Assembly (NCBI GenBank): GCA_900079685.1
Contig: LT599020.1
Span: 114,217-178,216, forward strand
Length of the DNA: 64,000 nt
From: an uncultured delta proteobacterium
GTDB taxonomy: Bacteria > Desulfobacterota > Desulfovibrionia > Desulfovibrionales > Desulfovibrionaceae
Direction of reading: 5' to 3'
This document shows, piece by piece, positions 57,453 through 62,989 of this stretch. The notes beneath the pieces were generated by a model. That model was given only the letters and a program-made list of their open reading frames with translations. It made no database searches and had not been told where the DNA came from. Made by a program: the position numbers and the translations under genes. Position 1 is the first letter of the stretch. Each line of letters opens with the position of its first letter.

Positions 57453-59618
57453 TCACTCCAACTTCCAGGCCAGAAGGGCCACCAGGGTCACAAGGATGTA
57501 GAGAATGTAGCCGTTGGCCCTGCCGTGCTGCAATTCCTTGCATTTGTCGGCAATGCGCGAGACCAGGGTAAACAGGGGGGCAAACCCGCGCGTTTCGATC
57601 CAGTCGGGCGTTGCGACGGTCGCCTTGGCCTTGAGCGGAAAATATTCCGTTATACCCGGCGAGGTGAACTTCTGGCGCAGGATGGTCCGCAGGAAAAACG
57701 CCGCCGGTTGCGAGAAGGAGCCCGCCGTGTATTGAATCCGGGCGGTCGGGGCGAGGTAGCCGCAATCCCAGGTCGGGGAGGCGCCGATGGTGCGCTCCCG
57801 CAGGCAGCGGCGGCGAATGCAAAACGCCGCGAGAACGGCTATGGCGAGCAGCAGGAAAATGTTGTTTACAAGCTGCAGCAGCGTGATGGCGGAGTCCGGG
57901 CCGCCGGAGTAGTTCGGACCCGGGGCAAGGCGCGGGGGAATGAACCCCTCGGGAACCAGGGCAAACCGGGCGGCGGAGCCCGCCGCCCGCGCGGGAGCGG
58001 CGGCGAGGACAGGCGCTGCGTCTGTAGTTGTGGAAAAGGCCGGGGCCGCGGCCATGGCGCTGAGTTGTGCCACGCGGGGCGCGGCCAGGGCCGAGAGCAT
58101 GCAGAGCGCGGCCATGATGCAGACGGCGATCATTTCGTTTCTGGCCGGAGGCTGCGCGTTCTGTACCGCCTCGGTCCGGGGCGCGCCGAGAAAGGCCATG
58201 CCGTAAAGCCTGGAAAAACAGAGCAGCGTAAGCCCGCCGACAGCCGCGAGAATGAACAGGCAGACCCAGAAAATCAGGCTGTACTCGGGAGAAGGCCCGC
58301 CCGCGCTGGCTATGCCGCCGAACATCATGCCGAGGTAAATGAAGAATTCGCCCGCGAAGCCGTTCAACGGCGGCAATGCCGCAATGGCGGCGCTGCCGAA
58401 AACGAAACACCAGCCCACGACGGGCAGGCGTTTTTGCAACCCTCCCAGAAGGCGAAGGGATACGGTGCCGGTTCCGCGCAGCACGCAGCCCGCGCAGAGG
58501 AACAGGAGGCCCTTGCTCAGGGCGTGGTTGAGCATGTGCACCAACGCGCCCGTGGCCGCGAGGGCGGCCGCCCCGGCATGGTTGCCCTGCAGGCAGAGAA
58601 GGGCAATGCCGAGCGCCAGGAAGATGATGCCCATATTTTCCACGCTGGAAAACGCGAGGGAGCGTTTGATGCTGCTTTGGGCCAAGGCCAGGAGAATGCC
58701 CGCCGCGGCGGAGAACAGACCGGCGACGATCAGGATATAGGCCCACCAGGCCTCGCCCGCGCCGAGAAAGCCGAAGGCGCGGATAATGCCGTACACGCCC
58801 ATGTTGACAGCCGCTCCGGACATGACGGCGGCAACGTGGCTGGGCGCGGCGGGGTACGCTTCGGGCATCCAGACGTGCAGGGGCATGAGTCCGGTTTTTG
58901 CGCCGAAGCCGATCACCGCCAGGATGAAGAGAAGGCCGGAACCGCCCCGGATGCCCGGCTCAAGGTTGGCCGCTCCCGCAACAAACGCGGCGAATGAGAG
59001 CGATCCCCCGTTTTTCGCGGCAAGCAGCGCGAAAAAGGCGAGCAGGAACAGGGCGCCGAGGTGGGCGGCCACAAGGTAGATCCAGGCGGCGGAACGCGTC
59101 TCGGCGGAGGAGCCGTTCATGGTGATGAGGAAGAAGGGCGTAAGGGACATCAATTCCCAGGCCAGCAGGAACAAAAAGGTATCGGCGGCCGTCAGGGTGA
59201 GCACCATGCCGCCCGCGAGAAGATTGTAGAAAAACCAGTGGGCTCCTGCATGGCCCGCCACGCGGTCTTTCGCGTAGCCGGGGTCCGGGTTTTCGCCGCT
59301 TCCGTTCCCGTTGCCCATGCCGTAAAACGCCGCGACAGCCACCAGAAGCAGCACCGGCACAAGGAACAGCGCGCTCAGAAGATCAAGATGCAGGGCGATC
59401 ACGCCCATGGGGAGTTTGCCTAACGTCTGGGAAAGAGGGGACGCGCCAGGGGCCGCGATGTTGCCGGCGAGCAGCAGCAACGCCGGGACAAGGCCGGCCA
59501 GCGAGGCCGCGATGGCGGAAACCGCGCCGATGCGCGAAGCGTTTTGCCCCCGGCCCGACGCCAGGGCGGCACATCCCCCGGCAAAGAAAAGCCCAAGGGA
59601 GGCAAGGAGAAAAGCCAT
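57453..59618 (-). CDS. HyfB-like membrane subunit
   Basis: The 721-residue protein is a NuoL-type antiporter-like subunit, the first gene of the complex. It has the conserved LAWELMSLTPFFLI (Glu), GAKTGLMPLHVWMPEAYPAA (Lys, His), LAFSSVENMGIIFLA, and the LPPLNGFAGEFFIYLG segment. A C-terminal stretch with CGYLAPTARIQYTAGSFSQP is typical of HyfB. It starts with ATG at 59618, about 120 bases after a promoter-like box. Confidence 0.92.
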   Translation of the reverse strand: MAFLLASLGLFFAGGCAALASGRGQNASRIGAVSAIAASLAGLVPALLLLAGNIAAPGASPLSQTLGKLPMGVIALHLDLLSALFLVPVLLLVAVAAFYGMGNGNGSGENPDPGYAKDRVAGHAGAHWFFYNLLAGGMVLTLTAADTFLFLLAWELMSLTPFFLITMNGSSAETRSAAWIYLVAAHLGALFLLAFFALLAAKNGGSLSFAAFVAGAANLEPGIRGGSGLLFILAVIGFGAKTGLMPLHVWMPEAYPAAPSHVAAVMSGAAVNMGVYGIIRAFGFLGAGEAWWAYILIVAGLFSAAAGILLALAQSSIKRSLAFSSVENMGIIFLALGIALLCLQGNHAGAAALAATGALVHMLNHALSKGLLFLCAGCVLRGTGTVSLRLLGGLQKRLPVVGWCFVFGSAAIAALPPLNGFAGEFFIYLGMMFGGIASAGGPSPEYSLIFWVCLFILAAVGGLTLLCFSRLYGMAFLGAPRTEAVQNAQPPARNEMIAVCIMAALCMLSALAAPRVAQLSAMAAAPAFSTTTDAAPVLAAAPARAAGSAARFALVPEGFIPPRLAPGPNYSGGPDSAITLLQLVNNIFLLLAIAVLAAFCIRRRCLRERTIGASPTWDCGYLAPTARIQYTAGSFSQPAAFFLRTILRQKFTSPGITEYFPLKAKATVATPDWIETRGFAPLFTLVSRIADKCKELQHGRANGYILYILVTLVALLAWKLE

Positions 59619-59708
59619 AGCCGGAACACCCCGTCTGAAATACGGTTGCAGTCCGGTGCGCGCCGCGCGGGAAAATTATGAAAACGCAACGCCCACAGTA
59701 CCACGCGG

Positions 59709-59737
59709 GGTGTACTCCCGCGCGGGGAATTCGTCAA
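59709..59737 (-). promoter_or_regulatory. Possible promoter of the Hyf-like operon
   Basis: TTGACG (59737-59732) and TACACC (59714-59709) are 17 bases apart. The -10 is poor, but the position just after the structured element mirrors the better promoter beside the second copy at 62487-62515. Confidence 0.4.
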
Positions 59738-59742
59738 GCTAA

Positions 59743-59883
59743 ACCACCGGGGAACGGCTCCTTTTGCCCTGATACTGCGTCAGGCGCGCTTTTGTCCTCG
59801 GTCATGGGCCGAAGAGCCCACTCCCTGTGGCAAAAGCGCGCCTTCTTTGTCTGAGGGCAAAATGAGCCGTTCCCCCAAGTGGT
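59743..59883. repeat. Structured repeat element, copy A
   Basis: This intergenic element between the TPR gene stop and the Hyf-like operon folds into one long arm. The outer stem pairs 59749-59770 with 59854-59875 (one mismatch) and extends to ACCAC/GTGGT at the ends. A middle stem pairs 59783-59794 perfectly with 59831-59842. The apical hairpin TGGGC/GCCCA (59805-59809 with 59816-59820) has the hexaloop CGAAGA. It shares CCTGATACTGCGTCAG and the loop with copy B. It has no T-run, so it is not a standard terminator. Confidence 0.75.
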
Positions 59884-59887
59884 GCGA

Positions 59888-60352
59888 TTACAGGGGAGCG
59901 GTCTCTTTCAAAAAGGCGAAGTCGTCATCGTCGTTTGCAAAGATATCCTCGCCTTCGAGCATATAGGCGCGCAACAGGTAGTCTAGGGCGTTCTTCGCGT
60001 CGCCGAGCCTTCGGTAGCTTTGGCCGAGGCGCAGGAGGACGAAGGGATTCACCTCGTCGGGGCCGGCGAAGGTGTAGGCTTTATGGAAATATTCCAGCGC
60101 GCCGTTGTAATCCTGCATACCGTAATACGCGTCGCCAAGGGCGGCCTGGAGCCAGCCGTACGGCTCCCACTCGTCAGCCGGGGCGGGCAAAATTTCCAGC
60201 GCTTTTTCAAAAAAAGTAATGGCTTCCCGGAACTCGCCTTCGTCCATGGCTTCGTTCCCCTGGTCGCAAAGCTCCTCGAGAGCGTCCTGAATGTCCTCGG
60301 AAAGCGTGTCCGTGGAAGGCGTTTCCGGGGAAAAGGTGTCGGGATCGGTCAT
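59888..60352 (-). CDS. Tetratricopeptide-repeat protein
   Basis: The 154-residue cytoplasmic protein has three TPR units (FREAITFFEKALEILPAP, LGDAYYGMQDYNGALEYF and LLRLGQSYRRLGDAKNAL) and acidic ends. TPRs bind other proteins. The ATG at 60352 overlaps the lpxB stop as ATGA and follows GGAGGATTTGCC, so translation is coupled. Its partner is unknown; the context is outer-membrane lipid and rhamnose synthesis. Confidence 0.85.
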   Translation of the reverse strand: MTDPDTFSPETPSTDTLSEDIQDALEELCDQGNEAMDEGEFREAITFFEKALEILPAPADEWEPYGWLQAALGDAYYGMQDYNGALEYFHKAYTFAGPDEVNPFVLLRLGQSYRRLGDAKNALDYLLRAYMLEGEDIFANDDDDFAFLKETAPL

Positions 60353-61476
60353 GGCAAATCCTCCACAATGACGTCGGCGGCGCGGTTCACCGCGCCGGGT
60401 TCCCCCATTTGCGATTGAAGGTCCGCAAGCTCCTCGCGCACGGTCTCCAGGGGGCGGGAGCCGTCGGCGGGGGCAAGCCATTCAAGCGCCTTGGCCGCGA
60501 TGTTTTCGCCGTCCGCGTCTTTTTGCAGCAGTTCCGGGAACAGGGCCTTGCCCAGGATCAGGTTGGACAGGCTGACGTACGGAATTTTTATCACCATCCG
60601 GATAAGAATGGAGCTTATGGGCGTGACCTTGTATGTCACCAGCGTCGGCGTCCGGGTGAGGGCGGCCTCCAATGTCACGGTGCCCGAGGCGGCGATGAGC
60701 ATTTCGCAACTGCGCATGAAGGCGTAGCGGTCATCCGGCGGGCAGACGGCAAGGGGCACGTCGGCGGGCCAGAGCGCGCGGAGCGTTTCCTCGGACACGC
60801 CCGGCGCGCGCACCATGTGGAACGTGAGATGGGGCAGTTTTTGCAGCAGTATCCGCGCGGCTTTTCCGAACTCCGGGGTGAGGGACGTTATTTCCCGGTT
60901 CCGGCTGCCGGGCAGGAGCCCGATTTTGCCCGGTACCGGGGCGACGTCCTTAATACGGCTCCAGTCGACCATGTCCACAAGGGGGTTGCCCACGTAGTCG
61001 ATGTCCATGCCGAATTTTTTGTAGAAGGCGACCTCGAACGGCAGAATGCTGATGAGCCGCCGGACGTTCTCCTTGATGAACAGGGCGCGTTTTTCCTTCC
61101 AGGCCCAGGCTTTGGGGCTTATGTAATAATATACGGGAATGCCCAGCTCCCGAGCCGCTTTGATGACGCGGAAATGGAAGGCCGGGGCGTCGATGACGAT
61201 AACCGCGTCCGGCCTGTTTTCAGCCAGGCTTTTTTTGATGCGGGAAAGCAGGCCCAGGATGCGCGGCAAATGGCGGAGCACTTCCGTCACCCCCATCACG
61301 GAAAGCTCCTCGATGCGGAAAAGGGGGGTGAAAGCCTCTTCCCGCGCCATGTACGGCCCGCCCATGCCGATAAAGGAAAGGGACGGGGCCTTTGCGCGCA
61401 GGGCCGCGACGAGGGCCGCGCCGTGCATGTCGCCGGACAGTTCGCCGGCGCTGATCCAGAGTTTTCGCGCGTTCAT
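60349..61476 (-). CDS. lpxB: Lipid-A-disaccharide synthase
   Basis: LpxB joins UDP-diacylglucosamine and lipid X to form the lipid A disaccharide. The 375-residue protein shows ISAGELSGDMHGAALVAAL, IEELSVMGVTEVLRHLPR, VIDAPAFHFRVIKAAR, YYISPKAWAWKEKR and LPGSRNREI, all standard. It follows rmlD by nine bases and overlaps the TPR gene by four. It shows that the organism makes lipopolysaccharide. Confidence 0.96.
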   Translation of the reverse strand: MNARKLWISAGELSGDMHGAALVAALRAKAPSLSFIGMGGPYMAREEAFTPLFRIEELSVMGVTEVLRHLPRILGLLSRIKKSLAENRPDAVIVIDAPAFHFRVIKAARELGIPVYYYISPKAWAWKEKRALFIKENVRRLISILPFEVAFYKKFGMDIDYVGNPLVDMVDWSRIKDVAPVPGKIGLLPGSRNREITSLTPEFGKAARILLQKLPHLTFHMVRAPGVSEETLRALWPADVPLAVCPPDDRYAFMRSCEMLIAASGTVTLEAALTRTPTLVTYKVTPISSILIRMVIKIPYVSLSNLILGKALFPELLQKDADGENIAAKALEWLAPADGSRPLETVREELADLQSQMGEPGAVNRAADVIVEDLP

Positions 61477-61485
61477 CGCCGGGGG

Positions 61486-62370
61486 TCAGCCATGGTCCGT
61501 GTTGGCGAAAATGTAGTCGGCCAGCGCGGGCCCCCAGGACCGGGGCGTGATGCCCGTCAGCTTGGTGAACTTTGAACAGTCAAGGGCGGAAAAAGCGGGG
61601 CGCTGGGCTTTTTGGGGATACTCCCCGGACGGGATGGGCGTGACCGGGCATTCGAGCTGGGCCAGCCGGATGGCTTCCGAAGCCAGTTCGCACCAGGAAA
61701 CCTGGCCGCTGTTGGCGATATGGAAAATGCCCCGGCCCCCGGCTGCCAGAAGATGCAGGCAATAGGCGGCAAGGTCCATGGTGTAGGTCGGGGACCCGAT
61801 TTGATCGTGCACCACTTTCAGCGTTTTCCCCTCGGTGCAGAGGCCGAGAATGGTGCTGACGAAGTTCTTTTTACCGGGGCCGAAAAGCCAGGCCGTGCGG
61901 ACGATGCACAAATTTTCAAGTTGCAATTCCAGCAGCGCCTTCTCCCCCTCAAGCTTACTGCGGCCGTATACGTTCAGCGGGTCCGTCGCGTCGGTTTCGA
62001 CGTAGGGTTCTTTTTTGCGCCCGTTAAAGACGAAGTCCGTGCTGCAATGCAACAGGGAAATGGACGGTCTTTCCTTGATGATCCGCCCGAGAAGGCGGGG
62101 GAAAAGCCTGTTCAGATTCAGGGCTTTCTCTTCCTCCTCCTCCGCCTTGTCAACCTGGGTGTACGCGATGGTGTTGCACACGATGTCCGGGGTGTGGGAA
62201 TCGATGTACGCGGCAATGCTGGCGGTATTCAGGGGGTCAAAATCCCCTCTGGCGGAAGCGATGACGGGATATCCGGCCAGGGAGGCCGTCTGAACCATGG
62301 CTTGACCGAGGAGGCCGGTGGCGCCGCCCAAAATCATAAGTTTGGGTTTTGCCGTGGCGTGCATGTCCAT
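61486..62370 (-). CDS. rmlD: dTDP-4-dehydrorhamnose reductase
   Basis: RmlD (RfbD) makes dTDP-L-rhamnose for surface polysaccharide. The 294-residue protein is an NADPH-binding short-chain-type enzyme: LGGATGLLGQAMVQTA near the N-terminus, CSTDFVFNG, and the YGRSKLEGE catalytic Tyr/Lys. AGAGGATAT precedes the ATG at 62370. It is first in the rmlD-lpxB-TPR unit, about 110 bases after a good promoter. The other rml genes are not in this window. Confidence 0.88.
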   Translation of the reverse strand: MDMHATAKPKLMILGGATGLLGQAMVQTASLAGYPVIASARGDFDPLNTASIAAYIDSHTPDIVCNTIAYTQVDKAEEEEEKALNLNRLFPRLLGRIIKERPSISLLHCSTDFVFNGRKKEPYVETDATDPLNVYGRSKLEGEKALLELQLENLCIVRTAWLFGPGKKNFVSTILGLCTEGKTLKVVHDQIGSPTYTMDLAAYCLHLLAAGGRGIFHIANSGQVSWCELASEAIRLAQLECPVTPIPSGEYPQKAQRPAFSALDCSKFTKLTGITPRSWGPALADYIFANTDHG

Positions 62371-62486
62371 ATATCCTCTTTGCGTTGGCGCGCATGCCGG
62401 TTATCAGAGGGGAGGGCCGGTTTCCGGGGGCGGAGGCGCGCATTACGGAAAACGCCTTGGCTAAAGGGCGGTGTCCGGGAGGTAGA

Positions 62487-62515
62487 ATAATAGCGGGGTT
62501 GCAGGCCGTGGTCAA
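62487..62515 (-). promoter_or_regulatory. Promoter of the rmlD-lpxB-TPR unit
   Basis: TTGACC (62515-62510) and TATTAT (62492-62487) are 17 bases apart on the minus strand, each one base from consensus. The leader to rmlD is about 110 bases. Confidence 0.75.
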
Positions 62516-62525
62516 GGCGGGGAGT

Positions 62526-62640
62526 GGCTCAGTTTGCCCTGATACTGCGTCAGTGCACGATTTTCCTCCGGGTCATGGACCGAAGAGTCCGCTCCCTGCG
62601 CGAAATCGGCACGCTTCCTTGTCTGAGGGCAAACTGAGCC
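62526..62640. repeat. Structured repeat element, copy B
   Basis: The outer stem is a perfect 15 bp (62526-62540 with 62626-62640). A middle stem pairs GTGC-bulge-CGATTT (62553-62563) with AAATCGGCAC (62603-62612). The apical hairpin GGAC/GTCC (62577-62580 with 62587-62590) carries the same CGAAGA hexaloop as copy A. Compared with copy A, a G:C pair in the apical stem has become A:T with both partners changed. The left part CCTGATACTGCGTCAG is identical in both copies. Confidence 0.75.
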
Positions 62641-62669
62641 GCGACCCGGTGTGCCGCTACCCGCAATGC

Positions 62670-62709
62670 AAAAAAAGGCCCGCCGGGGCGGCGGATGCGC
62701 CCCGGCGGG
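62670..62709 (-). terminator. Rho-independent terminator (minus strand)
   Basis: A perfect 12-bp stem (62679-62690 with 62698-62709) is followed on the minus strand by seven T. It ends the YggT-DivIVA-DUF167-DUF465 unit. Confidence 0.85.
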
Positions 62710-62761
62710 AAGAGGGGCATGGGCTGCTTTTTCTGCCCATGCCGGTTATATGAGCGCGAGG

Positions 62762-62989
62762 CTAGGCTTCGCGGGCGTACCGTTCCAGAATGGCGACGAG
62801 CTTCGTCTTGGCTTCCAGTTTCTGCTTTTTGAGCTGCTTGACCTGCATATCCTCGGCGGGTGTGCGGTAGGGCTTGCTTTCCAGCTTTTCCAGCTGCTTC
62901 CCGTACAGGGCGTGCTCGCCCTGAAGGGTGCGGAGTTCTTCATCTTGGGGCGCGTACTTTTCCATCAATTCACGTTCTCTTTGGTCCAT
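62762..62989 (-). CDS. DUF465 (YdcH-like) protein
   Basis: The 75-residue helical protein matches the DUF465 pattern, with EHALYGKQLEKLESKPYRTP and VKQLKKQKLEAKTKL. These small coiled-coil-like proteins have no established role. GGAGAGTGTGCT precedes the ATG at 62989. It is the last gene of the division-linked group. Confidence 0.8.
   Translation of the reverse strand: MDQRERELMEKYAPQDEELRTLQGEHALYGKQLEKLESKPYRTPAEDMQVKQLKKQKLEAKTKLVAILERYAREA

Follow-up and report, generated by a model that had tools for sequence, protein, structure and literature searches.

ERIC, Correia/NEMIS and RUP are palindromic bacterial miniature inverted-repeat transposable elements (MITEs) of about 100-160 bp that insert at TA, do not code for protein, lie between genes and have no transposase of their own. 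Repetitive extragenic palindromes (REPs) are 20-40 bp long with a terminal unpaired tag, and GTAG/CGTC-tagged palindromes are described in the main text of PMC3733652, which contains no word starting with "Desulfo". We analysed a stretch of 64,000 nucleotides from an uncultured delta proteobacterium of the family Desulfovibrionaceae (assembly GCA_900079685.1, contig LT599020.1, positions 114,217 to 178,216; hereafter the window), in which a preliminary description had pointed out two look-alike structured elements, copies A and B. Both are probably copies of a dispersed, non-autonomous, MITE-like structured mobile repeat of the Desulfovibrionales.

Copies A and B were found where they had been reported. 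They share the 16-mer CCTGATACTGCGTCAG exactly, the GGGC/GCCC pairing of A becomes GGAC/GTCC in B by compensatory change, and the middle stem is re-paired with a different sequence in B, as is seen directly in the letters. The arms proved to be inverted repeats, as stated, but the paired region of B is slightly longer than had been given (arms at 62518-62545 and 62621-62648). On the minus strand, the whole hairpin of A, including the outer stem and diverged GTAG-type ends, spans 59743-59883, as judged from the inverted repeat, the fold and matches to two covariance models (R2 and the independent R3); that of B spans 62518-62648 by inverted repeat and fold. Compared with shuffled sequences, A folds with a z-score of -10.2 on either strand and B with -5.4 (plus) and -3.7 (minus). 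Our third covariance model, R3, was built from 22 sequences with none from the source genome, and it matches A with 88.8 bits (E 5e-22) and B with 70.9 bits (E 4.7e-17), both on the minus strand; these are its sole matches in the window. The R3 match to A (59762-59862) covers stem 1, internal loop 1, stem 2, internal loop 2 and the apical hairpin, and the corresponding core of B lies at 62532-62634. Internal loop 1 of A has the 5' side CAAAGAAG at 59842-59849 (family consensus CAAGGAAG) and the 3' side CTGACGCAG at 59775-59783, both on the minus strand and both within near-invariant columns of the 36-copy alignment A4 described below. By their ends, A and B are assigned to the GTAG-type copies defined below.

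A 21-base piece of the shared sequence, allowing up to 3 mismatches, occurs at 27 sites in the source genome and at 101 in the related genome G034 (the metagenome-assembled genome (MAG) TD116_bin81), while the reversed control pattern has no match in either genome; A and B are therefore members of a repeat family and not a mere pair. With a first covariance model made from 16 copies, the source genome has at least 80 matches, or at least about 71 places after 9 opposite-strand duplicates are merged, and G034 has at least 137. Each of three genomes of genus g50 has at least 80-82. Further copies in related genomes, which had been named as a check on the preliminary description, were thus numerous: the second covariance model has matches in 103 of 348 genomes of the class. 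These belong to 20 of 59 genera and extend into other families of the order, and many have few matches. R3 gives 65 matches across 70 loci of the source genome. Carriers include Desulfovibrio cuneatus DSM 11391 (taken as G019) and the MAG Nt197P4bin33 (G030), as well as G034. Within genus g10 the distribution is patchy, that is, there has been gain or loss: depending on the model used, at least 11-13 matches fall in one of the genomes G074 and G010 and zero to two in the other. Direct-tandem copies were seen at L202 (G064, 1452-1706) and L206 (G091). In a viral collection, one contig carries a copy (IMGVR_UViG_3300005405_000220; L354, 6324-6375), which may be host flank or prophage.

The earlier remark that the element was not recognised as a known family agrees with searches of Rfam 15, in which it was unmatched at the gathering threshold in the window and in 17 other copy-bearing loci; the two Rfam matches among those 17 loci are riboswitches elsewhere in the loci. 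A search up to E 5 of window positions 59600-62800 gave nothing over the copies. We found no description of such a repeat family in Desulfovibrio in a literature search from whose scope subscription journals mostly fell out, and the family is large and, as far as the accessible literature shows, undescribed.

Elements are mostly about 125-190 bp long, intergenic and present in high copy number. On one strand the core is a rod made of a long outer stem, a CAAGGAAG / CUGACGCAG internal loop, a second stem, a GGGA / GACC internal loop and a small apical hairpin. The two internal loops are its most constant parts, and their sequences would allow tandem G-A pairs in both. Compensatory change maintains the fold, and does so strand-specifically. 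Selection for structure, suggested earlier from two copies, is now seen in strong covariation in alignment A4 and in Watson-Crick replacements among young G034 copies. A4 has double-sided changes in 33 of 36 pairs and a covariation of 0.569, against 0.208 for shuffled alignments and at most 0.141 for slid partners, and none of 500 shuffles reached it; 90.8% of the cells at its pair positions are paired, a value inflated by prior filtering for pairing. Of its 36 rows, 34 had passed that filter (at least 9/13 and at least 8/13 stem positions paired, alignment score below 0.80 to earlier rows), copy A and one L019 copy were added by hand, and the passing rows L151 and L165 were omitted. An alignment unfiltered for pairing (A1, 16 copies chosen by eye from matches to the 5' and 3' motifs) has double changes in 15 of 24 pairs.

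The strand can be told from the mismatches. In the orientation first used, stem mismatches comprised 149 A.C and 24 G.T in 103 copies (the elements of 110-135 nt among the 116 scored), some of the A.C mismatches recurring at fixed positions in many copies; an A.C excess in that orientation means G-U on the complement. This complement, the minus strand in the window, has the lower minimum free energy in 128 of 133 copies, a set with one false match or more (L031). In 42 young G034 copies, pairs that are one step away from Watson-Crick are G-U in 45 cells and A-C in 15, with 160 cells changed to other Watson-Crick pairs; these cells are not independent of one another, and counted by pair position the numbers are 22 with G-U and 11 with A-C. 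Because G-U is favoured over A-C and the energy is lower on the same strand, selection has favoured the fold of one strand, and the sequences give good support to the view that the minus-strand fold (cores 59862-59762 and 62634-62532) is the one kept by evolution family-wide. Compensatory change with G-U over A-C on the folding strand is the pattern looked for in a functional RNA. The same signal could come from RNA or from single-stranded DNA during transposition, and the folding strand could be either.

The preliminary description had offered three roles, of which that of a mobile repeat is borne out by 8-bp target duplications and by orthologous sites that are filled in some genomes and empty in others. 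At least two end types are found around the core. GTAG-type ends read GGTAGTGGCTCA..., and 8 of 65 pairs of such ends (61 places) are flanked by 8-bp direct repeats (at least 7/8 bases identical), against 0.33 expected from re-paired flanks; seven of the eight directly abut the element and the eighth is shifted by one base. Other copies, here called non-GTAG, are associated with stop codons. The clearest site lies upstream of pyrD in genus g50: the empty genome G152 reads CGC TA GGGCAAGGG and the filled genome G153 reads CGC TA [145-bp element] TA GGGCAGGGG, which places the insertion within a TAG stop, at its TA. Six other species retain an apparent 3'-arm remnant there. The traits of a MITE were found in terminal inverted repeats, many dispersed copies and no coding capacity, the length of 125-190 bp leaving no room for a transposase gene, and in a target duplication, of 8 bp for the GTAG type and of TA at the one filled/empty site.

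Some short hairpins have GTAG-type ends and lack most or all of the conserved core (L225, 1409-1461; L227, 1506-1588; L168, 1324-1376), as if the ends alone were enough to be carried. Some copies contain another, smaller hairpin repeat (around GCCCGTAAGGGCTCG...CTCGCCTAACGGGC), which is nested in the apical loop or the conserved CGTC loop (L077, L088, L081 and L226 in the source genome; L179 and L189 in G089; L296 in G152).

Placement of the non-GTAG copies is strikingly one-sided. With the element read in the orientation other than the folding one, an open reading frame (ORF) of at least 200 codons ends at its 5' end in 56 of 82 copies and at its 3' end in 7, an ORF end being counted from -14 to +8 nt of the element end. 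The 116 elements scored in this way (82 non-GTAG, 34 GTAG-type) are 65 of 76 and 51 of 60 listed, after opposite-strand duplicates, partial matches, repeat loci and one contig-end locus were dropped. With called genes, from a home-made gene caller, the 32 copies of genus g50, which include mutual orthologues, gave 26 entries to 0. Relative to the gene that such a copy follows, the strand that folds better is the antisense one. All ten proteins examined that adjoin copies have Pfam matches, including the TPR protein beside A, and in FtsK, chorismate synthase, arginine decarboxylase and Dak1 the domain ends a few residues from the C-terminus (the FtsK gamma domain reaches residue 454 of 455, and the chorismate synthase profile is complete). 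Since these domains reach the C-termini, the element follows native stops and has not truncated these genes. The base before the stop is C in 30 of 45 adjacent genes, against 36 of 113 others (G034 left out), an excess in keeping with what insertion at C-TA-G would be expected to give. A palindromic CTAG target cannot by itself set the orientation, which must come from selection or from some coupling to the gene. Read-through past the stop, with the element in frame, was considered and rejected, as stop-to-anchor distances cover all three frames.

Orthologous sites show how copies change once in place. At the pyrD stop 2 of 7 g50 species have the core; at the aroC stop 5 of 6 have it, in one case with an insertion nested in it, and the remaining species retains 5'-arm-like sequence; among 30 aroC loci examined of 35 matches, a copy at the stop is confined to g50. 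Orthologous copies usually diverge more (identity 0.64-0.98, 11 comparisons) than their mostly coding flanks (0.80-0.99), with the exception of L240/L041 (element 0.96, flanks 0.90); one of the eight orthologous sets, L185/L252, was left out. Some orthologous copies have wholly different stems around the same loops, and in L177/L191 10 of 11 changed pairs are still paired, 7 of them through double-sided changes. Either the stems were swapped by recombination at the conserved loops or the sites were filled again, and both fit a mobile family.

We propose that a transposase supplied in trans would recognise the element ends, and that insertion at C-TA-G would be tolerated at an amber stop because the first base of the element, G, would restore TAG and leave the gene complete. 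The strand-specific fold would then serve either as the substrate of transposition or as an RNA whose G-A loops are recognised by a host factor, and the orientation bias at stops may arise because the presence of the folding strand in the mRNA of the gene is selected against (or for).

Several results weigh against this reading. No transposase with matching ends was found among the Y1, ISL3 and IS1595 types tested, IS630-type enzymes not having been searched for. The TA duplication is the weaker part of the case, coming from one clean site and a few copies: a strict test for TA at both ends is passed by 7 of 73 non-GTAG copies (GC 28, CG 16), TA being rare there because stems run on or ends have decayed. 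The empty site of G152 could also reflect precise loss of an element. An excess of TAG at adjacent stops is significant in G034 alone (p 0.002; source genome p 0.24, g50 p 0.22). GTAG-type copies have no orientation bias in the count of ORF ends (4 versus 6 of 34), although called genes in G034 gave 15 entries to 8 for them. Over 11 orthologous comparisons 70 of 127 changed pairs stay paired, in alignments that are poor through the replaced stems, and the pairing filter applied to A4 raises its paired-cell percentage.

It is possible, if rather unlikely, that the element is instead a host-serving structured RNA of gene 3' ends (a factor-dependent terminator, an antisense block or a processing site) that was spread by an old mobile element and is kept site by site. 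The position of copies exactly at the stops of intact genes in one orientation, the re-paired stems at some orthologous sites such as L177/L191 and the selection visible among young copies all speak for such a role. So does the scarcity of intrinsic terminators beyond the element in the direction of the gene, which number 2/38 in the source genome and 1/28 in G034 as compared with 8/24 and 5/14 at control gene ends; in g50, however, they are about as frequent after elements (8/32) as after control genes (7/24). The hairpins themselves have no U-tract: group means are 1.5-2.8 T per 8 nt, and 3 of 224 sides reach 6 T or more. They are therefore no intrinsic terminators of the ordinary kind, and that candidate was rejected. 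The better-folding strand is moreover antisense to the preceding gene, presence at the same stop varies between species, as at pyrD and aroC, and GTAG-type copies are found in front of genes and between divergent ones as well.

More speculatively, and with what we regard as a small chance of being right in full, the element may be a mobile structured RNA with a conserved folded core that a host or element protein reads at the tandem G-A loops. Two or more transposition systems would have captured this core, and in some genera it would now be a regular feature at the 3' ends of tens of genes per genome, almost always in antisense to the preceding gene, where it would limit antisense or read-through transcription.

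REP/RAYT-type repeats, GTAG-tagged hairpins moved by an IS200/IS605-like Y1 transposase, are a very improbable explanation. They would account for the GTAG ends of one subfamily and for the high copy number and intergenic placement, and Y1 transposases are present in the carriers G019, G026 and G108. Copy-rich G034 has no match to a Y1 transposase, however, and G062 and G089 lie outside the 57/149 genomes listed with a match, for which reason a Y1/RAYT partner was rejected; unless the transposase was lost in these genomes, this explanation is largely refuted. Target duplications of 8 bp are not expected from Y1 transposition, and the element is a rod of 125-190 bp and not a hairpin of 20-40 bp. 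That the copies are ordinary intrinsic terminators working in both directions, or palindromes alike by chance, would explain strong hairpins after stops but is refuted to near certainty by the missing U-tracts, the target duplications, the covariation and the matches of one model in 20 of 59 genera.

As to other partners for the mobile repeat, an ISL3 partner in the source genome was rejected: both ISL3 types there have different ends. This comparison covers the source genome, and for one type, in which two of three copies share flanks, the right end could not be placed. Both ISL3 types start with GGCTC. At G000:C1:1747596-1749519 of the source genome (L288, L289) two inverted ISL3-type copies are adjacent and their flanking bases look exchanged, which resembles the outcome of a transposition inversion. 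An IS1595-type transposase was found once in six genomes. In the source genome no facing pair of GTAG-type ends at 0.8-3 kb was seen. Twenty places around lone ends gave six facing combinations in four loci (L224, L234, L235, L236), of which L235 and L236 enclose genes for MacB/FtsX, ThiG and AMIN proteins and not transposases, and beside a lone end in G034 (L023) no transposase-like neighbour was recognised by eye.

In the window, copy A follows an ORF for a TPR-repeat protein (59888-60481, minus strand; ORF list and Pfam) whose TAA stop is 4 nt from it, and the folding strand of A is co-directional with this ORF. The next gene after A encodes a Proton_antipo_M protein of the NADH:quinone oxidoreductase/Mrp type (57453-59618, minus strand) and the next after B an RmlD_sub_bind protein (61486-62370, minus strand), both by Pfam. 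A sequence scan found a terminator-like hairpin with a T-tract at 62679-62709 (minus strand), outside the element, between a DUF465 gene and copy B. The -35-like boxes reported beside the two copies are both present (plus-strand CGTCAA at 59732-59737 and GGTCAA at 62510-62515), but a full promoter-like pair was found for B only: TTGACC-17-TATTAT at 62487-62515 on the minus strand, with 10/12 matches, where the shuffled region has on average 0.9 promoter-like sites as good. In 180 nt on each side of 112 copies, pairs with at least 10/12 matches adjoin 0-10% of copies, the range spanning group, side and strand, and mean best scores are similar for both strands; on these counts, which had no shuffled control, a promoter link as a general rule was rejected. 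Nor does the element separate operons as a rule, as had been suggested, since the copy of G153 lies between pyrD and its upstream gene, whose stop-to-start spacing is 21 nt in the empty genome.

A family with at least 80 to at least 137 matches in four closely searched Desulfovibrionales genomes and strong covariation is absent from Rfam. It is a clear example of a mobile element whose fold is under selection, of gene-sparing insertion on stops and of one core with two end types, and it offers a natural system for asking when a selfish hairpin turns into a gene-end regulator.

Among described repeats, the family resembles the REP/BIME palindromes, as presented in the main text of PMC3733652, in high copy number, in location mostly outside genes, in the GTAG ends of one subfamily and in the CGTC of a conserved loop; it differs from REPs in being longer than 20-40 bp and in having no matched Y1 transposase in copy-rich G034. 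Its covariation looks to us similar in strength to that of curated Rfam RNA families, from which it differs in having no match at the gathering threshold. Judged by general properties, and not by sequence, it appears closest in kind to MITEs like ERIC, NEMIS or RUP, being similar to ERIC, Correia/NEMIS and RUP in size, in its imperfect palindrome, in being non-coding and gene-adjacent, in having no transposase of its own and in the TA target duplication, here at one clean site. Unlike these, the Desulfovibrionales repeat combines fixed internal loops with freely changing stems and favours one strand, its non-GTAG copies sit at stops mostly in one orientation, and its core is common to two end types.

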